Shown piece after piece: positions 41,837 through 52,419 of a stretch of DNA of 64,000 nt (its first letter is position 1; every line of letters starts with the position of its first letter). The notes below the pieces were generated by a model. The model was given only the letters and a program-made list of their open reading frames with translations, did no database searches and had not been told where the DNA came from. The translations under genes and the position numbers were made by a program. This DNA comes from Saprospiraceae bacterium (GTDB lineage: Bacteria > Bacteroidota > Bacteroidia > Chitinophagales > Saprospiraceae). The stretch spans positions 1-64,000 of the forward strand of contig JARGNR010000014.1 of NCBI GenBank assembly GCA_029212405.1. The letters run 5' to 3'.

Positions 41837-42889
41837 ATGAAAAAAATGATAAAAAATAATTGGAAATATATATACCTCTGTTTCTTGGGACTTTGTCTAG
41901 TAGCGCTTTCATGTTCAGATGAAGATTCAGATAATACAGAGATGGAAATTATGTACGATTGCCCTGACTTAGAGTTGGATTATGGAGATACATGTGAAAT
42001 TGATTCATCTTTTGGGATCGTGAATCAAGACTGTGAATGTATCATTAACGCACCCGTTTTTGATTGTCCAAACCTACAAGCAAATGTCGGGGATTCATGT
42101 ATGTTGGGATCTGGTGTTGGGATTATTGATACCAATTGTGTATGTAATACTGGAAATCAGGTATGGGATTGCATAAATTTGCAGCAAAATATTGGAGATT
42201 CGTGTACCACAGCTGCAGGTTTCGGAATACTAGATGAAAATTGTGAGTGTGATGTGACAGGGAACATTTGGGACTGCCCAGACCTACAATTGAATTTTGG
42301 CTATGATTGTATTTTACCCGATTCTACGGTTGGATTTGTGAATATGGAATGCGAATGTGAATCGTATTCAAATAATTATGATTGTCCTGATTTGATGGTC
42401 AACTTTGGTGACAATTGTCAGACGGCTACAGGTCCAGGAACAATTAACCAAGACTGTGAATGTGAGCCATCAACCTCAATATGGGATTGTCCAGATATTT
42501 TTCAAAATTATGGAGATTCCTGTGTGACCAGTGTGGGATATGGTTTCATCGATGACAACTGTGAATGTGATGTAACTGCATTTTTTTGGGATTGTCCAGA
42601 CTTGCAACAAAATATTGGGGATAATTGTCAGACGGCTACTGGTCCTGGAGTAATCAATCAAGATTGTGAATGTGAATCTACCATGTGGGACTGCCCAGAT
42701 TTACAATTGAATTTTGATAATGATTGTATTTTGCCAGATTCTACCTATGGATTTGTGAATTTGAACTGTGTTTGTACACCCTATGGTAGTATATTTGACT
42801 GTCCAGATTTACAATTGAATATTTCGGATACGTGTGTAATTAATAATGTATTTGGAATTGTCAATGATGATTGTGAATGTGAAGATTAA
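41837..42889 (+). CDS. Lipoprotein with nine cysteine-rich repeats
   Basis: A 350-residue lipoprotein; LVALSC gives a lipidated Cys near residue 26. The rest is nine tandem units of about 33-36 residues following the pattern DCPDLQ-N-GD-C...G-(I/F)-(V/I)-N-(x)-CEC, each with four cysteines. Tryptophan, tyrosine or phenylalanine precedes the first Cys of every unit. Such units occur in large adhesin-like proteins of Bacteroidota, probably as small disulfide-knotted modules. The repeats differ enough from one another to exclude very recent duplication, although units 5 and 7, and 4 and 8, are close. It lies directly before the ECF sigma gene, separated by a hairpin. Confidence 0.78.
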   Translation: MKKMIKNNWKYIYLCFLGLCLVALSCSDEDSDNTEMEIMYDCPDLELDYGDTCEIDSSFGIVNQDCECIINAPVFDCPNLQANVGDSCMLGSGVGIIDTNCVCNTGNQVWDCINLQQNIGDSCTTAAGFGILDENCECDVTGNIWDCPDLQLNFGYDCILPDSTVGFVNMECECESYSNNYDCPDLMVNFGDNCQTATGPGTINQDCECEPSTSIWDCPDIFQNYGDSCVTSVGYGFIDDNCECDVTAFFWDCPDLQQNIGDNCQTATGPGVINQDCECESTMWDCPDLQLNFDNDCILPDSTYGFVNLNCVCTPYGSIFDCPDLQLNISDTCVINNVFGIVNDDCECED

Positions 42890-42897
42890 ATAAATGG

Positions 42898-42926
42898 GCA
42901 GGTGCATGAATCATAAATGCACCTGC
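42898..42926 (+). terminator. Perfect 10-bp hairpin before the ECF sigma gene
   Basis: GCAGGTGCAT (42898-42907) and ATGCACCTGC (42917-42926) are perfectly complementary around a 9-base loop and are followed by CTTTT or so. The structure begins 9 bases after the lipoprotein stop and ends 8 bases before the sigma ATG at 42935. It is probably a (partial) terminator of the lipoprotein transcript. Confidence 0.7.
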
Positions 42927-42934
42927 TAACTTTT

Positions 42935-43474
42935 ATGCAAGTACGTAAAGATATCATACAAAAGTGCAAGGCGTTTGATCCAAAAGCGCAAAAAGAAATG
43001 TACGACACCTTGCTGCCCTACCTCAATAGTGTATGTAGGAGATATCTATATAATTCGAGTAATCGAAGCGATGCCCTTCAAGAGTCTTTTATCAAAATTT
43101 TTACAAAAATTGATCAATTTGATATAAATAAAGGATCGTTTAAATCATGGTCTACAAAGATTACTATTAATAGTTGCTTGCAATATGGTCAGAAAGCATC
43201 TTCTCGAAATGAAATAGAATTAAGTGTGGCTGAATATCAGATTCCAATAAGCCCAGAGATTATTGCAAGACTATCGAATGAAGAAGTCCTTTTTGTGTTG
43301 TCCAAAATGCCAACAGATTATCTTCAAGTGTTCAATTTATATATTATTGATGGGTTTTCACATACTGAAATTGCTGAGATGCTGAACATCAAATCTTCAT
43401 TGAGTAGAAAGCGTCTAGCAAGAGCTAGAGATTGGATTTCGCATAAAACTGAACTAAAAACAATGATCGGCTAA
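42935..43474 (+). CDS. ECF-type RNA polymerase sigma factor
   Basis: A 179-residue extracytoplasmic-function sigma factor. Region 2 includes CRRYLYNSSNRSDALQESFIKIF (quoted in part: SDALQESFIKIF) and region 4 has FNLYIIDGFSHTEIAEMLNI with the DNA-recognition helix SSLSRKRLARARDW. I choose the ATG at 42935 (MQVRKDIIQK), because the in-frame ATG at 42917 is part of the right arm of a hairpin. It is 31 bases before the next gene, which encodes a membrane protein with a cytoplasmic head, the usual place for an anti-sigma factor. Confidence 0.88.
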   Translation: MQVRKDIIQKCKAFDPKAQKEMYDTLLPYLNSVCRRYLYNSSNRSDALQESFIKIFTKIDQFDINKGSFKSWSTKITINSCLQYGQKASSRNEIELSVAEYQIPISPEIIARLSNEEVLFVLSKMPTDYLQVFNLYIIDGFSHTEIAEMLNIKSSLSRKRLARARDWISHKTELKTMIG

Positions 43475-43505
43475 AAATTAATAAATGAGGTAAATTTTAC
43501 AACGG

Positions 43506-45014
43506 ATGGAATGGTTTGAAAAAGAATATAAAAGGCGGTTTGAAAATGAATCTACCCACGAAGGGATAGAATCCAATCTTCTTTGGGATAAGATAGCAGA
43601 ATCCATCCCTCAAAAGAGCCCAAAGAAAAGAATTCAATCCTGGAAGGGGTTGTTGTTTTTCGGCTTATTTTTCATGGGAGCAACAATTCTATTTTTAAAT
43701 TCACCTTTTCCAAGTTCAACTTCAAACCCGAAACAACAAGCTAATGCTGAACATCAAACACCGGAAAATTTAACTAGCTTTAATAATGTAGCAAGTGATT
43801 CTCCAATGACCATTGCTGACAAAAAACAAGAAAATAATAGGGCTAATAATAGGAGTGAAGCAGCACAGGAAAGTAAGCAGGAAGAAAATAAACCAGATAA
43901 AAAAGAAATCTATTCGAAAGATAAAAGGGTAAGTCAGTCACCACAAGTAAAGCGCATTGAAAAAGAAGGGAATGTCCAGTCCAAGCGTAAATTGAAAGAA
44001 AGTGATGAACGGTTGCCGACAGAACACATAAATGATTCAAATGAGCAAAAGGGTAATACCAATTCTAACAGCTCTCTTTCATCATCATCTTCTACTACTA
44101 CTACTTCTTCTTTCAACAACAAAAGTATAATTACTAAGGGCACACAAAAGTCATTGAAAAAGGCGATAGAAAGTGATTTGGATGAAAAAAATGGCCTGGA
44201 AAAAACCATTGAATCAGAAGAAATTGATAGTCGAATAAGAGGACTCGTCGACGATATACCTATGCTTAATTTTATTCATACTAAAGAATTAACTCATCAA
44301 GAAGGGATTTCTATCTCACCGCAAACACCTCGTGTTGACATCATTCAACATTCATCAAATCCATGGACGGTCCAGTTGAATACAGGAGCAAATTTTTTGG
44401 ACTTAAGATATCAGAATGTTTCCAGTACGGAGCAATTTGCATCTGATGCCAATGCGGCTATCGGAGCATTACAAATTGGGAACACAACAGAATTGCTCTT
44501 AGACCATCAGCTTAATGATTCTTGGTCGATTGCATCTGGGGTATCATGGAATGCATATGAACATAAGCTCCATGCTGTTCTGACTTGGGATTCGACAGCA
44601 TTAGATGAATTTGAAAAGTTGAGAAATGCAAAATATACCAGAACAGTTATTCATCATAACAAATTAAATACACTAACCATTCCTCTTCAAATCACCTACT
44701 CGACATACCTATCGAGAAAATGGGCAATGGGTACCTCTTTTGGAGGAACATATTCTTTAGTTCGGTCACAACGGGGAAAGATTTTGGGCAGTACGAATGG
44801 ATTTTTGTTGTATTCTGACTCAGAAAACAGGCAATTTACAGATTTCATAAGTTTGAGGATCCAGCCTATGCTTAGATACATAATGAATGATCATTTTGCA
44901 CTTCAATTGAATGCTGGAGTTTCATTTCAGAAACATGGATTAGCAAACATTCAAAATCTAAATCAATCTTCTAAAATATATTCCATAGGTCTGGGTTTGA
45001 GATATACGCTTTAA
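43506..45014 (+). CDS. Protein with cytoplasmic head, inner-membrane helix, long linker and beta-barrel tail
   Basis: A 502-residue protein without a cleavable signal. Residues 1-45 are charged and cytoplasmic-like, a single transmembrane helix spans about 48-66, and residues 70-250 are a disordered Lys/Glu/Asn/Ser-rich linker with a run of Ser and Thr near 195-205. From about 285 the chain becomes amphipathic strands (WTVQLNTGANFLDL, WAMGTSFGGTYSLV, IYSIGLGLRYTL) like an outer-membrane barrel. This would connect cytoplasm and outer membrane in one chain. Its place 31 bases after an ECF sigma gene makes it a candidate sigma regulator. Function is inference only. Confidence 0.65.
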   Translation: MEWFEKEYKRRFENESTHEGIESNLLWDKIAESIPQKSPKKRIQSWKGLLFFGLFFMGATILFLNSPFPSSTSNPKQQANAEHQTPENLTSFNNVASDSPMTIADKKQENNRANNRSEAAQESKQEENKPDKKEIYSKDKRVSQSPQVKRIEKEGNVQSKRKLKESDERLPTEHINDSNEQKGNTNSNSSLSSSSSTTTTSSFNNKSIITKGTQKSLKKAIESDLDEKNGLEKTIESEEIDSRIRGLVDDIPMLNFIHTKELTHQEGISISPQTPRVDIIQHSSNPWTVQLNTGANFLDLRYQNVSSTEQFASDANAAIGALQIGNTTELLLDHQLNDSWSIASGVSWNAYEHKLHAVLTWDSTALDEFEKLRNAKYTRTVIHHNKLNTLTIPLQITYSTYLSRKWAMGTSFGGTYSLVRSQRGKILGSTNGFLLYSDSENRQFTDFISLRIQPMLRYIMNDHFALQLNAGVSFQKHGLANIQNLNQSSKIYSIGLGLRYTL

Positions 45015-45029
45015 AAATTTAGTAAAACT

Positions 45030-45842
45030 TTATTTTTTGAGGGCAGCCTTACTGAAAATGTAGGGAGGGATATCAGGATCAAATTGAATATCGATCAACA
45101 CAAAATCAGTTCCTTTTCCTGACTTGAGCATGTCTTTGAAGTTAATTTTTTTGGGATACCATCGACCTTGAATTTGGATGATATCAGACATAGTTGTTTT
45201 TTTGAGGAGTTGACCACTTTTAGCAAATAATTCTTCTTTTAGCGGAACAAATCGTTCTTGGTCAATCCACATTTTTCGTTGATGATATGTGACATCATCC
45301 ACTTTTGCTACCAAGTCTAAAATCCAAGTGTTTCTATCATTGATCATTTCTGTACCCAATATTTTTGCATCGTACATATCCAGCAGCTCTCGATCTTCCA
45401 TCATATCTTCATAGGATAAGTCTGAGCCCATTACGGATTGTTTGAGCATATGCCCTGAGAGTTGTATGATACGATCTGTGTCAGGGGAATAGATCCACAA
45501 CTTGTCCTTCAGTTTAAGCATTTTTGTACCCTTCTCTTTAGCCGGTGAAAGATATTCAGAAAACGACTCTTTATCTCCACGGGCATACCCTTTTGATCGG
45601 ACTGTCCTATTTTTTCGTTTGCCATAAATCATCATATCCATGGTAGATATGCGGGTGTCAGATGTCATATTTTTATCTACCTTTTCAATAATGGTTTTTG
45701 GACTAATCTGATCTTGCTGGATGGAGGGGTTCTGATTCGAATTGGAGTTGATTTCTATATTCTTGAATGAATAAGTGGAAACAAACAACAGTGCAGCCAA
45801 AAGGATGTAGGTTACGTATTTCATTTTTATATTTTGGTTCAT
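45030..45842 (-). CDS. LolA-like outer-membrane lipoprotein-sorting protein
   Basis: A 270-residue periplasmic protein; the signal peptide probably begins at MKYVTYILL (residue 7). The mature part is the LolA-like half-barrel (PF17131-type) with KGYARGDKESFSEYLSP, LWIYSPDTDRIIQLSG and the characteristic VMGSDLSYEDM (about 131-141). Such proteins carry lipids or lipoproteins through the periplasm. Its start codon overlaps the stop of the upstream ABC permease gene by four bases, so translation is coupled. It is the last gene of the seven-gene operon. Confidence 0.85.
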   Translation of the reverse strand: MNQNIKMKYVTYILLAALLFVSTYSFKNIEINSNSNQNPSIQQDQISPKTIIEKVDKNMTSDTRISTMDMMIYGKRKNRTVRSKGYARGDKESFSEYLSPAKEKGTKMLKLKDKLWIYSPDTDRIIQLSGHMLKQSVMGSDLSYEDMMEDRELLDMYDAKILGTEMINDRNTWILDLVAKVDDVTYHQRKMWIDQERFVPLKEELFAKSGQLLKKTTMSDIIQIQGRWYPKKINFKDMLKSGKGTDFVLIDIQFDPDIPPYIFSKAALKK

Positions 45843-47113
45843 ACTTCTAATTCTTTAAAAAGACGAGCAGTCTCTCTTTTATAAATACCAATTCCAGAGA
45901 GCATAGTTCCAATTACAGTTGCAATTAACCCAGGAATAAATCCTATGAAAAACATATACGGAAGTACTTTTGCCCTCAATACGGATGGCATTAACATGGA
46001 AGAATTTTCTAAATATTCACTTGCATCAATGCCTACAATTTGTAAATAATATGCTCCTGCTAAACCAATGCATGTGCCAACAATAGAACCAATTAGGCCA
46101 ATCAATATTGCTTCAAAAATAAGGGCTCTATAAATGTGCCCTTTGGATTCTCCCAAAGCCAATCGTATTCCAAATTCTTGATATCTTCTCAATCCTCCTA
46201 ATAGTCCTGTGTTCCATAGTACAATGGACATGGCAAATACAAATATGAAAATAAATATGCCTGACATAAAATTGGAATAGTCCAACATCTCTCCCAGATT
46301 ATTCTGCGCTCTCAAGGGCATCATAATGGGAGAAAATTCGTCTTGGTCATCCATAAATCGGGCGTTAAATTCTGCAGCCATGATTTGTGTTTCTTGGTCA
46401 TCATATACATTGAGCTTTGAAAACCCCACGATTTCCCCCGTTCCATCTTCCATATCCAACATTTCCTGGGCATCCTTGATGTCAATGATTAATATCCCCC
46501 GATCCATGGCTCCAGCTCCAAAACGTATAGTTCCACATACTTGATAATTTTTAAATGTCATACTCCCTTCCATGGTTGTTCCAAAAAAGGTAAATACATC
46601 TCCAATTTTCAGATCCAGTTTTTCATAGAAATCATGTCCAATAATAGCTTCTCCTGATTTTTTGGGCATCTTCCCTTGGACTAAAGAGGTCTCGATATTC
46701 ATTCGTTGGGCCTCTTTGCTGTTTTCATCCAGCAGATTGATGGCAATTCCTGCTGCAGGACCTTGGCCTTTTGATATGCCTTCTTCGTCAGGTACATCGA
46801 TCAATCCACCAAATTTGATTCGACTTTCCCATTCCATTTGTGGATATTCTGTATCCAATGTATTCTTCAAGGCCTCTACACCCAATAGGGCTAAATCATT
46901 AGGAAGTTGATCTTTATTTTCGGCATAGGATCGGGACATGATTTTTACGTGCCCAGTTTCAAAACGCGCATTTTGATCAATCATATCCCCAAATGCTCCT
47001 TTCATGTAGGCACTTAATACCACGGTCAGGGCAACACCTATGGCTACCACAGCAATGGGTAATATGCTTCGACTCTTGTCTCTTAATATGCCTTTTAATA
47101 AAAATCGAATCAT
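45839..47113 (-). CDS. ABC transporter permease, FtsX/LolE-like (second)
   Basis: A 424-residue MacB/LolCE-type permease. It has one transmembrane helix near the N-terminus (about 18-38), a periplasmic domain of about 230 residues, and three further helices (about 290-420), with the conserved coupling segment RRYQEFGIRLALGESKGHI, cited in part (EFGIRLALGESKGHI). Four-base overlaps link it both to the upstream permease and to the downstream LolA-like gene. Together with the paralogous permease it would form the transmembrane part of a heterodimeric exporter that acts on substrates at the outer face of the inner membrane. Confidence 0.88.
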   Translation of the reverse strand: MIRFLLKGILRDKSRSILPIAVVAIGVALTVVLSAYMKGAFGDMIDQNARFETGHVKIMSRSYAENKDQLPNDLALLGVEALKNTLDTEYPQMEWESRIKFGGLIDVPDEEGISKGQGPAAGIAINLLDENSKEAQRMNIETSLVQGKMPKKSGEAIIGHDFYEKLDLKIGDVFTFFGTTMEGSMTFKNYQVCGTIRFGAGAMDRGILIIDIKDAQEMLDMEDGTGEIVGFSKLNVYDDQETQIMAAEFNARFMDDQDEFSPIMMPLRAQNNLGEMLDYSNFMSGIFIFIFVFAMSIVLWNTGLLGGLRRYQEFGIRLALGESKGHIYRALIFEAILIGLIGSIVGTCIGLAGAYYLQIVGIDASEYLENSSMLMPSVLRAKVLPYMFFIGFIPGLIATVIGTMLSGIGIYKRETARLFKELEV

Positions 47114-48267
47114 TGCATTTTTCCTTTTAAAGCAAGCACTGGATTCATTTTAGCAATTTTCCGCGCTGGTAAATAACTCACCACAGCAGCAGAAACAACC
47201 ACTAAAAGAATTGTAGTCAATATCAATTGTATGCCAAATGAAGGGAATAGTCTAGTTGGAAATGATACGCCCATATCCTGGTAAAAATCTGGAAACGAAA
47301 TACCCGAAGTATGTAAGTACCAAAACAAAGGCAGTCCAAAGATACATCCAACAATCATTGCAAATAGACTGTACATGGTTCCTTCTACCGTAAATAAGCC
47401 AACCACCTGAGATCTAGTCATCCCCAAGGCAATGTAGGTACCGATTTCTTTCTGTCGTCGAAATACAGAAAGCACTTGGGTATCAAAAATGGCAAGCAGG
47501 GCAATGGCAAGGAGCAATAAATACATAAATGATGTACTGATTTTCTCCATTTCCATAAGTTTATAAAAATCACTGAGAAGGTCATCTTTAGTTTTGTAGT
47601 TCCAACCTTCAAGAGAGGATGGTGTATAATTCTCATTAGCAACATAGTAGCTTGCATGATTTTCCAACCCTGTCATTTCCCACAGTTTTTGAATTGGAAT
47701 CCAGACTTGTCCTTTATCTACAGTGATTACATTCGTGCTGAAGATTTTTACGATAGTAACATTTGCTGCATCAAACGTGCCTCCTTTATCTCTCCAGCGT
47801 AATAAGATTTCATCCCCTTCTTTTATGTCGATAGAGGTAGCCATGTTTTTACCTATTATTGCTGGGATTTTCGTGTTTGAAGATGTAAAACTCGCTGTGG
47901 GAAGCTCCAATAAATTTTGCTGTCCATCAATGCCTTTCAACGCAACAGATAGCATTCTTCCTTCTGGATACAAGGAGGCTTGTCGCACCAAAACAGGAAA
48001 AAGATCGACTTGTTGTTCCTGAGTTAATCTTCCATGACCATCAAGAATAGAGAAAGGATCATATGGATCATACCCATTGTGAACCAAATGACCCGCACCC
48101 AGCTCCCATTCTATATTATCTCGTATTGCTTGGTGATTCCATCCTTCCAAAAAACCACGGAAAAAGATGATAATAATAAATGAAAGTGCCAATACACCGA
48201 CGTTGAGCCAAGTCCTCAAACCAGCACCAATTAAATTTTTATATGCGAGTTGAAAAGCTAGTTTCAT
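47110..48267 (-). CDS. ABC transporter permease, FtsX/LolC-like (first)
   Basis: A 385-residue permease with the same plan as its downstream neighbour: an N-terminal helix (about 20-40), a periplasmic domain and three C-terminal helices starting near 245. The coupling motif is FRRQKEIGTYIALGMTRSQV, cited in part (QKEIGTYIALGMTRSQ), followed by YLPARKIAKMNPVLALKGK at the end, the standard FtsX-family tail. The start overlaps the ATPase stop by four bases. The two permeases probably pair with the ATPase in a LolCDE- or MacB-like complex. Confidence 0.88.
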   Translation of the reverse strand: MKLAFQLAYKNLIGAGLRTWLNVGVLALSFIIIIFFRGFLEGWNHQAIRDNIEWELGAGHLVHNGYDPYDPFSILDGHGRLTQEQQVDLFPVLVRQASLYPEGRMLSVALKGIDGQQNLLELPTASFTSSNTKIPAIIGKNMATSIDIKEGDEILLRWRDKGGTFDAANVTIVKIFSTNVITVDKGQVWIPIQKLWEMTGLENHASYYVANENYTPSSLEGWNYKTKDDLLSDFYKLMEMEKISTSFMYLLLLAIALLAIFDTQVLSVFRRQKEIGTYIALGMTRSQVVGLFTVEGTMYSLFAMIVGCIFGLPLFWYLHTSGISFPDFYQDMGVSFPTRLFPSFGIQLILTTILLVVVSAAVVSYLPARKIAKMNPVLALKGKMQ

Positions 48268-48974
48268 GGTGCGTGGTTGACATTAATAATTTCATCTTCT
48301 TCAACCATTCCGTCCCTGAGATGAATAATTCGATCCAAGTAACCCATTACTTTTTCATCATGTGTCGAAAATATAAATGTAGTACCCAGTTCTTTATTCA
48401 TTTGTTTCATCGTTTTCAGAATAGCGTGAGCGTTGGCCGCATCTAGATTAGCTGAGGGTTCATCTGCAATAATAATTTCAGGATTTTTCACCATTGCTCT
48501 TGCGATAGCTACACGCTGTCCTTCTCCTCCTGAAAGTTTGTCTGGTTTTTTATTGGCCATCGAAGATAAACCCACCCATTCCAAAGCGTCATTGACCATT
48601 TTTTTACGTTTTTCAGAGGGAATATTTTGGAGTAAAAGCGCAAATTCTACATTTTCAAATACAGTATATACGGGAAGCAAATTGTATACTTGAAATATGA
48701 AACCAATGTGTTTATTTCTTAACAAGGCGGATTCTTTATGAGATAATTTCGATATTTGTTTTCCCAGAACAATAGCTTCTCCTTCTGTTGGTGAATCCAA
48801 TGATCCAATAATGTTAAGTAGGGTTGTTTTGCCAGAACCACTAGGACCAACTAAGCCAGAAAATTCTCCCTTAAAAAATTCAAGATTTATATTTTTAAGC
48901 GCAGTAAACTCTCCTTCTCCAACGGGGAATCGTTTGGTTAGATTATTGATTTTTATAATAGTTTCTTGGTTCAT
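48264..48974 (-). CDS. ABC transporter ATPase, LolD/MacB-like
   Basis: A 236-residue ATPase. Walker A GPSGSGKT is at 43-50, the signature LSGGE at 147-151, Walker B ends IIADEP with catalytic E172, and the switch His lies in FSTHDEKV. The sequence around [16 protein letters not shown] is typical of the LolD/MacB/FtsE group that drives FtsX-type permeases. It starts 12 bases after the outer-membrane barrel gene and overlaps the next permease by four bases. Confidence 0.92.
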
Positions 48975-48986
48975 ATTTTCATAGTA

Positions 48987-50141
48987 TTAATGATTATAGA
49001 CCAACATAAATCTGATTCCAGGACCAGTAAATTGATTGACCAAATCATTTTGTTGAAAACCTACAGCCGTTGCAGGGTTGTAATATCCCATAATATAGCT
49101 TGAAAAAGTGTCAAATTCATGCGTGTAGATCATGTTTAATATAAAATCTTTTGAATCCCAATTGTACAATACGACCGCATTCAATGCATCAAATAGACCT
49201 AGTGGGTAGGAAGTTGTTGTACCCGTCAAATGCGTTGTGTTTTCAAAACCCAATACAGATTGATCAGTTGCGATCATAAGATGTTCAAGGATAAGATTCA
49301 AACCATTACCAACTGCAAAGGTATAATCGGCCCCCAAATTCACCATGGTTTGATTGGTAAGAAGATTAAGATCTTTTCTTTTGTGTACCAATACTGTTTC
49401 AAACCACAGTCCTATAGTTAGGTCCCATTTACCGTCTAAAGCCAATCGATGTTCAGGAATCTTTTCAAATTGAGGAACGAAATCCAAATGAGTGGAATTG
49501 GCAGTACGATAATGGTAAGATAATGCAATTTCTCCCTTTGCTGTAGGATGCTGATAGCGACCTCCGAATTCGGGAACTTTTGAATTAGTTTCAATGGCAT
49601 CAAACCCTCTAGTCTTGGAGTTTCCGATTAATCCCCAAACCCAAATATTGGCATTATTAAGAAAATAATATCGGCCGAGGGCTCCATATACACCATTGGT
49701 CAATTGAAGTGGATCTCGAGGATCAATTTGATTAAACCACTGCAAAGGACGAAGCAACCGGGCTGCACCAAAATCTATTTTTTGAAGACCTATGCGGAGT
49801 TCAAATTGCCGTGTAGAATATCTAGTCCAAAATCTATATGGCTGAATCGATGCGTCTGACACTTCATTATTAAAAGGAGAAAAAAGTGTATTCGCCCAAA
49901 CATTAAGTGCTGCTTCAAAATCTATTTTGGATGCCTTTGCAGAATCTCTTGCAATGTCAACACTAAATTTAGGAATATACCGAGTGCCCAAAAATCCTTC
50001 TAAATCAGAATCAGGGGAATAACTACCGATTAAAGAAAGCTGACCATCAAATTCAGTATTTGTCTGTGCACAAATGAAAAAAGGAAGAATAAATAAGCCT
50101 ATGAAGAACATTCCTCTACATATGTACAATTGACATTTCAT
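48987..50141 (-). CDS. Outer-membrane beta-barrel (porin-like) protein of the ABC operon
   Basis: A 384-residue protein with a signal peptide ending FICAQ. The mature chain consists of alternating amphipathic strands joined by short turns (FWTRYSTRQFELRIGLQKI, cited in part: STRQFELRIGLQKI; GEIALSYHYRT; KWDLTIGLWFETVLVH) and ends RFMLVYNH, a reasonable barrel closing strand. It is a likely outer-membrane partner of the LolA-like protein and the ABC complex encoded next to it. It lies 9 bases after the second ppk2 gene and 12 before the ATPase, so it is clearly in the operon. No closer family assignment is possible by eye. Confidence 0.75.
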   Translation of the reverse strand: MKCQLYICRGMFFIGLFILPFFICAQTNTEFDGQLSLIGSYSPDSDLEGFLGTRYIPKFSVDIARDSAKASKIDFEAALNVWANTLFSPFNNEVSDASIQPYRFWTRYSTRQFELRIGLQKIDFGAARLLRPLQWFNQIDPRDPLQLTNGVYGALGRYYFLNNANIWVWGLIGNSKTRGFDAIETNSKVPEFGGRYQHPTAKGEIALSYHYRTANSTHLDFVPQFEKIPEHRLALDGKWDLTIGLWFETVLVHKRKDLNLLTNQTMVNLGADYTFAVGNGLNLILEHLMIATDQSVLGFENTTHLTGTTTSYPLGLFDALNAVVLYNWDSKDFILNMIYTHEFDTFSSYIMGYYNPATAVGFQQNDLVNQFTGPGIRFMLVYNH

Positions 50142-50150
50142 TGAATCTGT

Positions 50151-50924
50151 TTATTCATAAGGAACTTTGTCTAACACAAGTTTAATAGCTTCCATTCGAG
50201 CATTAGATTTCTTATTGGCATCAATTATATACCAAGGGGCATATGCTGTATTTGTGGATTCAAACATTTTTTGCTTGTAGTCGCTGTAGTCATCCCAAAG
50301 ATCTTGTGCTTTTTCATCAATTTTGGTCATTTTCCAACGTTTTAATGGTGTACTCATTATGTCCTTAAAACGTTTGGCTTGTTCTTCCTTGGTAATAGAA
50401 AAGTAGAGTTTCAAAAGGTGGGTATCTGATTGAATCAACATTTTTTCAAATTCATTTACCTGTTTCATAAAGATCTCATATTCTTTGGGAGTACAAAACC
50501 CATTTACCGGTTCTACTACAGCTCTATTGTACCAACTTCTATCAAAGAAAACAATTTCTCCTGGTTTTGGCAACTCATTGATATACCTTTGGAAAAACCA
50601 CTGTTTTCGTTCATCATGAGTAGGTACATTCAATGCCACTATTCTAAAATGTCGAGGGTTAATATACTCAGTAATTCTTCTGATTGCACCAGTTTTACCA
50701 GCGGCATCTCTTCCTTCAAATAAGACGACTACCTTTTTTTCTTTCTGAATCACCCAATTTTGCAACTTGATTAGTTTTTCTTGCTGCTTCTTTAGTTCGA
50801 CGATATACTTAGTATCTTCTAATACCTTGTCTAAATTGAACTTTTTATTTTTTAAAGCGGTATGCAATCCTATTTTAGAATTCAATAAATCCACTTCTTC
50901 TTTAGTTAATTTTCTATGGCTCAT
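50151..50924 (-). CDS. ppk2: Polyphosphate kinase 2 family protein (copy b)
   Basis: A 257-residue P-loop kinase of the PPK2 family, which transfers phosphate between polyphosphate and nucleoside (di/mono)phosphates. Walker A is GRDAAGKTG at 71-79, the lid/catalytic segment is FFDRSWYNRAVVEPVNGF, and SITKEEQAKRF and PLKRWKMT are conserved, typical of the one-domain class I form. It is shorter at the N-terminus than its neighbour. Starting 9 bases after the other ppk2 gene and ending 9 bases before the barrel gene, it lies within the operon. The two copies have clearly diverged, so they may differ in substrate. Confidence 0.92.
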   Translation of the reverse strand: MSHRKLTKEEVDLLNSKIGLHTALKNKKFNLDKVLEDTKYIVELKKQQEKLIKLQNWVIQKEKKVVVLFEGRDAAGKTGAIRRITEYINPRHFRIVALNVPTHDERKQWFFQRYINELPKPGEIVFFDRSWYNRAVVEPVNGFCTPKEYEIFMKQVNEFEKMLIQSDTHLLKLYFSITKEEQAKRFKDIMSTPLKRWKMTKIDEKAQDLWDDYSDYKQKMFESTNTAYAPWYIIDANKKSNARMEAIKLVLDKVPYE

Positions 50925-50933
50925 GTTCTTTTT

Positions 50934-51806
50934 TTAAATGTCGATTTGAATAGCACTTCTATGGTATCTCATTATGATATTAGGGTCGGGCAGCAGAGAG
51001 ACCCCTGAAGCACCTTTACCTTCATATTCAAATTGCGATAGTACATAACGCATACTTTCCATTCTTGCCTTTTTCTTATCGTTGGTTTTAACAATGATCC
51101 AAGGGCTAAAATTGGTATGCGTCTTACTAAACATTTGTTCTTTAAAATGGGTATATCGATCCCACATTTCTTGACCTTTCATATCGACTGGACTAAATTT
51201 CCATCGTTTTAAGGGGTTTCTTAATCGAGCATCAAATCTCTTTTTTTGTTCTTCTTTGGAGATAGAAAACCAGAACTTGATAATCTTCATATTGTCTTCG
51301 TATAAGAGGTGCTCGTACTCAGGAACTTGGACCATGAATTTTTCGTATTGCTGTTTTGAACAGAAGCCCATAACAGGTTCAACGACCGCTCTATTGTACC
51401 AGCTTCGGTCAAAAAATACAATCTCCCCCGCATTGGGCAATACTTTGATGTATCTTCTGAAGTACCATTGACCCATTTCTACTTCAGTAGGTTTAGTCAA
51501 GGCAACAACCCGTGATGTTCTTGGATTCAAATGTTCCTTAAATCGTTTGATGGATCCTCCTTTTCCTGCAGCATCTCGACCTTCAAAGATGACCGCTACT
51601 CGCATTTTATTTTCAGCGATCCACTTTTGAAGATTTACAAATTCCGATTGGAGTTTTTGAAGTTCGGCTTCATAACTAAGTTTATACAAAGTTTTAGAAA
51701 CATTAATTTTATTTTTTTTTGCAATTTCAAGCAAATCATCTCTAGTTTTTGCGCTGGTGAAGTGCTCAGATTTGAAATGCGAATGCTTACCTTTATTTTC
51801 AGACAT
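50934..51806 (-). CDS. ppk2: Polyphosphate kinase 2 family protein (copy a)
   Basis: A 290-residue PPK2-family kinase with Walker A GRDAAGKGG (76-84), FFDRSWYNRAVVEPVMGF in the catalytic region, and PLKRWKFSPVDMKG near 215. The C-terminal extension GKGASGVSLLPDP ending RYHRSAIQIDI is not present in copy b. It is the first gene of the seven-gene operon, with no same-strand gene within the next several kilobases upstream. Reaction direction (polyphosphate synthesis or nucleotide phosphorylation) cannot be told from sequence. Confidence 0.93.
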   Translation of the reverse strand: MSENKGKHSHFKSEHFTSAKTRDDLLEIAKKNKINVSKTLYKLSYEAELQKLQSEFVNLQKWIAENKMRVAVIFEGRDAAGKGGSIKRFKEHLNPRTSRVVALTKPTEVEMGQWYFRRYIKVLPNAGEIVFFDRSWYNRAVVEPVMGFCSKQQYEKFMVQVPEYEHLLYEDNMKIIKFWFSISKEEQKKRFDARLRNPLKRWKFSPVDMKGQEMWDRYTHFKEQMFSKTHTNFSPWIIVKTNDKKKARMESMRYVLSQFEYEGKGASGVSLLPDPNIIMRYHRSAIQIDI

Positions 51807-51963
51807 TTGAATTTAAACTTGAATTTTTTACAATAATTTTAGAGATTCAAGTTAAGAATTTAATGGAGCAATATGCTTCCGTAAGTAACTGATTTATATC
51901 ATTCTTGTAGATGATATTGATTGGCATAAAAGAAATGAAAATGTGGTAATAACAATAAGTACT

Positions 51964-52419
51964 ATGAATTTTACCTATTCAAGGTTTACGAGGGGATACT
52001 TTTCTACTTATCTAAAGTGGTTTGAAAATGAGTTAGTCAAAAATGCATTGTATGGTATTGACGAAGAATGGTTGGAGTATGTATTAAATGATGAAACAGG
52101 AATAGAATATGCCGTATTTTCCGAGCAGGAGATGCTTGCTGTTCTAGGAGTAAAATACCCTGATGCGGATAATCCTACATATGTCATTACAAATATTGTA
52201 GTCAATCCGAGTGTATTTGGGCAAGGCATTGGCTCATTAGTTTTGGAGGATTTGAACCAATTGTTTGTTTTAGAAAAGGGGGAACGTTGGGTCGCATTTG
52301 TAGAACCTAAAAATAAAATAGCGCAAATGTTTTTTGCTAAGAATGGATGGGAACTGTGGAATGGAACGAGTAAGGTGGATCAAATGTTGGAGTTTAGAAA
52401 AGAGGGAAATTTTAAATGA
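51964..52419 (+). CDS. GNAT-family acetyltransferase
   Basis: A 151-residue protein starting at the ATG at 51964 (MNFTYSRF); a GTG seven codons earlier is also in frame but less likely. ITNIVVNPSVFGQGIGSLVLEDLNQL, cited in part (VVNPSVFGQGIGSLVLEDL), contains the acetyl-CoA-binding Q/R-x-x-G-x-G/A loop, and FFAKNGWELW near the end is the typical final strand. The acceptor is unknown. It may be a protein, peptide or small-molecule amine. It stands alone on the plus strand opposite the ppk2 operon. Confidence 0.85.
   Translation: MNFTYSRFTRGYFSTYLKWFENELVKNALYGIDEEWLEYVLNDETGIEYAVFSEQEMLAVLGVKYPDADNPTYVITNIVVNPSVFGQGIGSLVLEDLNQLFVLEKGERWVAFVEPKNKIAQMFFAKNGWELWNGTSKVDQMLEFRKEGNFK

Follow-up and report, generated by a model that had tools for sequence, protein, structure and literature searches.

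The locus described here raises the question of whether seven closely spaced genes form one system or two. The window, i.e., the whole stretch of DNA analysed (positions 1 to 64,000 of contig JARGNR010000014.1 from the Saprospiraceae bacterium assembly GCA_029212405.1), contains at positions 45030-51806 seven minus-strand open reading frames (ORFs), in the order ppk2a, ppk2b, barrel, ATPase, permA, permB and lolA: two polyphosphate kinases of the PPK2 family, followed by components of a putative transporter. A first-pass annotation of this DNA had described the layout as gaps of 9 (ppk2a-ppk2b), 9 (ppk2b-barrel) and 12 (barrel-ATPase) bases followed by four-base overlaps at the ATPase-permA, permA-permB and permB-lolA junctions, and the ORF list confirmed it, except that the last overlap exists only when the first start codon of lolA is used. 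Pfam and NCBIfam searches bore out the proposed identities of the two PPK2 kinases, the ATPase, the two FtsX permeases and the LolA-like protein, while the product of the third gene, annotated as a barrel, had no family match. The annotation had further claimed that the kinases belong to the exporter, and this claim was left unsupported. We conclude that two independent modules, a LolCDE-LolA-like transport cassette and a PPK2 tandem, quite probably lie end to end in the window, and that the seven-gene arrangement looks like a local rearrangement.

The separation of the two modules in other genomes was evident from both sides. A search with five PPK2 queries (E 1e-3) revealed no PPK2 gene beside the cassette in 109 loci (101 of them distinct) containing all or part of it, and no cassette was encountered when 11 ppk2 loci were read outwards. 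Both the barrel gene and ppk2a were present in 10 of 398 family genomes, and only in the window genome were they on one contig; in nine of the ten, they were on separate contigs. Barrel surroundings fetched from eight of these nine genomes contained no ppk2, and the ninth (G020) was judged by contig numbers. Two of the nine, G605 and G558, carry the cassettes most like that of the window, together with ppk2a orthologues (85% and 83%, respectively) and a TetR-type gene ahead of the barrel gene. The kinase pair was also found in the same-genus genome G150 (83% and 70% identity), which gave no barrel match. Conservation of the ppk2-cassette linkage in other Bacteroidota had been proposed as a check by the first-pass annotation, with occurrence in one strain only as the outcome that would speak against it; within our sample, the linkage was confined to one genome. 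We therefore rejected it as a conserved feature.

Each module was conserved in its own right. Matches to ppk2a at E ≤ 1e-95 were obtained in 71 of the 398 family genomes (window genome counted), the others being up to 86% identical, and in 21 of 22 other loci examined ppk2a was immediately followed by a second PPK2 gene, the lone exception reaching the end of its contig 312 bases later. Such a diverged PPK2 tandem (50151-51806 in the window) is conserved across many family genomes. The products of ppk2a and ppk2b, about 49% identical to each other, both passed the PPK2 equivalog profile TIGR03707 of NCBIfam (341.8 and 316.9 bits, respectively, versus a cut-off of 301.8) as well as the cut-off of PF03976. 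Inspection of the translations revealed that both have kept GRDAAGK, which we take to be the Walker A motif, and DRSWYNR, presumably the motif of that name. The closest solved relatives of the ppk2a product were 4yeg, 5ll0, 6dzg and 3czq; these entries are nearest to both kinases, and we take them to be class I PPK2 structures. By family, the pair would be cytoplasmic enzymes that transfer phosphate between nucleotides and polyphosphate.

To follow the cassette, a collection of 84,980 genomes was scanned with the carrier alignment, which returned at least 503 relatives; the best 80 were kept for locus analysis. Nearly all of these 80 loci were labelled as Bacteroidota, while one was labelled Desulfobacula and one Marinimicrobia. 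Cultured strains carrying the cassette include Flexithrix dorotheae DSM 6795 and Mariniflexile fucanivorans DSM 18792. The order barrel-ATPase-permA(-permA)-permB-lolA was observed in 58 of them, and 18 of the 22 loci without the full cassette start 300 bases or less from a contig end. In one locus (L157), the 437 bases ahead of the ATPase gene gave no barrel match. Nine loci fetched from the 10 further genomes of the phylum that gave a barrel match all contained the five genes. Close carrier orthologues (55-72% identity) were identified in 10 other genomes of 150 from the same family, the next matches being about 31% identical or lower; the close-type loci contained cassette genes without kinases to the limits of their contigs, with the exception of genome G057, where the barrel gene is elsewhere on the chromosome. 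The barrel gene itself has a patchy distribution (27 of the 398 genomes searched in the family and 11 of the 345 in the phylum, window genome counted in both). This recurrence as a conserved Bacteroidota cassette supports the earlier description of the FtsX-type ABC, LolA-like and barrel genes as a set of trans-envelope type.

Several variants were observed alongside the common arrangement. In locus L193 (6162-11995), the genes follow each other in the reading direction as lolA, tetR, barrel, ATPase, permA and permB; the carrier and the regulator can thus stand first. The gene for permease A was doubled in 8 of the 80 related loci, which suggests that a third permease is present or that the pairing differs. 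A second, distant group of LolA-like proteins, about 25-31% identical to the carrier, is commoner in Saprospiraceae than the close type: in the carrier search of the 150 same-family genomes, 81 had some match, of which 11 were of the close type. Eight loci of the distant group were inspected, and ATPase and permease matches were present there too.

In most other genomes, the cassette is headed by a regulator. The sequence upstream of the barrel gene extends to 1 kb or more in 46 of the 58 barrel loci (to 4 kb or more in 40), and in 32 of the 46 a TetR-type gene was found directly ahead of the barrel gene on the same strand. The Pfam domain TetR_N was present in all 29 regulator members scanned, and the 11 cassette regulators listed scored 158-271 bits against the TetR profile. 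A profile search of the window genome revealed no high-scoring copy of this dedicated regulator, the best match reaching 69.6 bits. The latter was rejected as a displaced cassette regulator: it fronts an efflux-type locus, and the genes behind it look, from the starts of their sequences only, like those for an outer-membrane factor, an adaptor and a large RND-type pump. Within two genes of the cassette on either flank, TetR was the sole family to recur in more than five genes. Ten neighbour genes scanned with Pfam belonged to mixed families, and with no other cluster of more than five, neighbouring genes were dropped as a clue to the cargo.

The products of the cassette genes resemble Lol components to different degrees. 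The ATPase scored 235.6 bits against the LolD profile TIGR02211, under its cut-off of 307.75, and permeases A and B scored 61.8 and 37.1 bits against the LolC/E profile TIGR02212, under its cut-off of 362.45. Permease B narrowly passed MacB_PCD (PF12704; 29.9 versus 27 bits). The carrier matched PF17131 with 200.6 bits over the full profile (1-184 of 184). Its structure model (pLDDT 85) had Foldseek matches to 3buu (NE2245), 9tp6 (LolA3 of P. gingivalis), 3bk5 and 4z48, with TM-scores of 0.68-0.82 to 3buu and 9tp6, which points to a LolA-type fold of the modelled protein; the four fold matches include a DUF1329 protein. In most aligned carriers, the start corresponds to a later ATG (MKY...), and with this start the permB-lolA overlap of 4 bases becomes a gap of 14. 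Counted from the first start codon, this spacing ranged in relatives from ca. 4 to ca. 460 bases.

The third gene product is a probable outer-membrane beta-barrel. The 384-residue protein had no Pfam or NCBIfam match, and comparison with the sequences of solved structures gave no match at E up to 1. Its N-terminus was hydrophobic as read by eye, and the structure model (mean pLDDT 57.5) contained 18 strands; its best matches, OmpF/OmpC porins, had low TM-scores (about 0.4-0.5). The alignment of 46 barrel members (A5) has 53 invariant columns. In a Pfam scan of the same members (E ≤ 0.1), Porin_4 (three members, weak), Legionella_OMP (one) and DUF6810 (one) were matched, and no match to the Omp85 family was obtained.

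In the window genome the cassette stands directly behind ppk2b, and because only 9 bases separate ppk2b from the barrel gene, a promoter upstream of the kinases may serve the cassette as well. The sequence TAnnTTTG, which we take to be the Bacteroidota-type -7 motif, did not occur on the minus strand from the start of the barrel gene up to position 51942, and is hence lacking ahead of ppk2a as well. A sigma-70 scan yielded one minus-strand match inside ppk2a (51631-51604); it returned 22 sites versus 35 in shuffled sequence. The joining of the modules would be derived rather than ancestral. An insertion scar or flanking repeats were rejected as its trace, since only short and imperfect repeats were present within 44600-52200; two of these (D8 and I6) touch the end of lolA but pair inside other genes. 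When the flanking sirtuin and outer-membrane genes were used to look for an empty site in three same-genus genomes, none had a site with both flanks, so the joining event could not be dated. On the other side of the cassette, at 41837-45014, genes for a Cys-rich repeat protein, a sigma factor of ECF type and a protein of 502 residues without a Pfam family form a group, and relatives of these three are also found together in the same-genus genome G151 (L211, 3161-6282). The seven genes are listed in Table 1.

Table 1. Genes of the PPK2 tandem and the transport cassette, with their positions in the window.
Feature	Position	Strand	Basis
ppk2a, class I-type polyphosphate kinase 2, leading gene of the conserved tandem	50934..51806	-	PF03976, E 1.2e-91
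ppk2b, second PPK2 of the pair	50151..50924	-	PF03976, E 2.3e-86
barrel, probable outer-membrane beta-barrel, starts 9 bases past ppk2b	48987..50141	-	46-member alignment, low-confidence model
ATPase, LolD-like ABC ATPase	48264..48974	-	PF00005; top NCBIfam match LolD, below cut-off
permA, FtsX-type permease A	47110..48267	-	PF02687, E 7.2e-19; LolCE profile, below cut-off
permB, FtsX-type permease B, MacB-like periplasmic domain	45839..47113	-	PF02687, E 6e-15; PF12704, E 8.7e-07; own alignment
lolA, LolA-like carrier (PF17131, LolA3-type), predicted periplasmic	45030..45842	-	PF17131, E 2.3e-59; true start may be 45824

A number of observations weigh against the two-module interpretation. 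The common strand, the 9-base gaps and the lack of a consensus promoter match between ppk2b and the barrel gene fit a single transcript, and the barrel gene and ppk2a co-occur in the family above chance (10 genomes versus 4.8 expected; hypergeometric P 0.011, uncorrected for relatedness), an excess that may reflect shared ancestry and the size of the genomes. The same features would favour a genuine system of seven genes whose PPK2 enzymes either supply the ATPase with nucleotide or tie export to the phosphate state. We consider such a system very improbable, given that the modules are unlinked in the 101 distinct cassette loci and in the nine other two-module genomes, that the outward reading of ppk2 loci met no cassette, and that PPK2 products are expected to be freely diffusing cytoplasmic nucleotides, for which the transporter would have no evident local need. 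As 14 of the 46 loci likewise lack the TetR gene, its absence from the window is by itself no sign of rearrangement. Nor is the cassette always intact: in 3 of the 80 loci the carrier gene has no adjoining cassette genes, and in G057 the barrel gene (C1:595184) and lolA (C1:3190758) are ca. 2.6 Mb apart on one 4.3 Mb contig, which means that the barrel can be split off from the cassette. Finally, the model of the barrel is poor, and the nature of the cargo and the direction of its transport are what we infer from the components. An artefact of the assembly, a draft of 222 contigs, at the ppk2b-barrel junction would account for a linkage found nowhere else. This explanation is very improbable: both genes are intact and 9 bases apart within a contig of 89.8 kb, and the repeats in the searched stretch are short and imperfect.

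Our preferred explanation, with two independent modules placed end to end, assigns them different tasks. In module 1 (45030-50141), an ABC part composed of the LolD-like ATPase and both FtsX permeases would extract a cargo that is lipid-like or lipidated from the inner membrane; shielded by the LolA3-type carrier, this cargo would then cross the periplasm and be received by the dedicated barrel or let through the outer membrane by it. In most other genomes this would proceed under the control of the cassette's own TetR-type regulator. Module 2 (50151-51806) would serve phosphate transfer between polyphosphate and nucleotides, and in the window genome its promoter may drive module 1 as well. 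The cargo is probably lipid-like, and the candidate interpretations differ solely in what the cassette carries. Tentatively, the TetR-barrel-ATPase-permease-permease-LolA3 set may be a separate, regulated route of the Bacteroidota envelope, with a channel of its own, that takes a specific lipid-like molecule from the inner membrane to the outer one or across it; in the window genome, this set would have escaped its repressor and come under a polyphosphate-kinase promoter.

Alternatively, the cassette could be a paralogous Lol route with lipoprotein cargo, which the barrel inserts or flips at the outer membrane. The LolA fold of the carrier and the top NCBIfam matches of the ATPase and permeases, LolD and LolCE, argue for this, but all three ABC components fall far under the Lol equivalog cut-offs, and the nearest neighbours show no recurring family (more than five genes) other than TetR, in a survey that did not extend to lipoprotein signals. 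In F. johnsoniae, moreover, deletion of lolA3, a gene that may or may not belong to such a cassette, left gliding and amylase secretion unaffected, and a lipoprotein reporter was still displayed at the surface of a mutant from which the lolA and lolB genes, five in all, had been removed (PMC11885536). We regard lipoprotein cargo as unlikely. It is also possible, though doubtful, that the cassette performs a regulated efflux of harmful hydrophobic compounds, such as tetrapyrroles or fatty acids, as an ABC counterpart of TetR/MMPL/LolA-like operons. To our knowledge, no resistance phenotype has been associated with the cassette, which counts against efflux, as does the absence of an MMPL gene from it. 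The position of the TetR gene directly ahead of the barrel gene is in line with efflux. So is the behaviour of the P. gingivalis W83 genes PG1175-1181 (TetR, MMPL, LolA-like and hypothetical proteins), which are up 13- to 136-fold without iron (PMC10434189), a like-named set being at the top of the hemin-limitation genes in another P. gingivalis strain (PMC10470040).

A recurring operon in which an inner-membrane extractor and a carrier are united with a dedicated barrel offers a concrete candidate, amenable to deletion, for one of the routes that take lipids and surface lipoproteins to the outer leaflet in Bacteroidota. Dropping the kinases spares later work a phosphate link that is not shared by the other genomes examined. 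We consider the cassette to be the interesting part of the locus and worth an experiment, and the kinase linkage to be of little weight unless a second case is found.

Among the papers listed by our literature searches, which covered few subscription journals, none was found to describe the cassette or a PPK2-exporter operon. Several known systems can nevertheless be compared with the two modules. The kinases share family and motifs with the class I type of PPK2, the difference being that here two diverged copies form a tandem. Down-regulation of P. gingivalis PG1180 by 4.15-fold upon addition of polyphosphate (PMC4236598) was set aside as a phosphate link: its authors attribute the effect to hemin limitation, and PG1180 is in an MMPL-type locus. 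That locus, PG1175-1181, has in common with the cassette a TetR regulator, a LolA-like (outer membrane lipoprotein-sorting) protein and a hypothetical protein (PMC10434189, PMC10470040); it differs in having an RND/MMPL transporter in place of the FtsX permeases. LolA-like proteins of hydrocarbon users (PMC6304351, PMC12583861) provided no closer match. With respect to the MacAB-TolC tripartite pump, an adaptor and a TolC-type exit duct were not found among the seven genes and three scanned neighbours. Among the fold matches of the carrier, LolA3 of P. gingivalis (PGN0947, 9tp6) ranks second to 3buu and first among those from Bacteroidota species (26% identity, E 3.5e-20); it is described as a carrier without an assigned function that binds LolB only very weakly (PMC13103446). 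The Borrelia cluster BBJ23-BBJ29, of seven genes and reported from Borrelia only, likewise combines a predicted outer-membrane barrel, a MacB/LolCDE-like ABC transporter and a LolA-like carrier, with a non-polar ligand, but its barrel is of Omp85 type, it has one permease where the cassette has two, and it includes two TPR proteins (PMC13078400). With LolCDE-LolA the cassette shares the FtsX-type permease pair, the LolD-like ATPase and the LolA-fold carrier, whereas its scores below the LolD and LolCE cut-offs, its PF17131-type carrier, its own barrel and, usually, its own TetR regulator set it apart.

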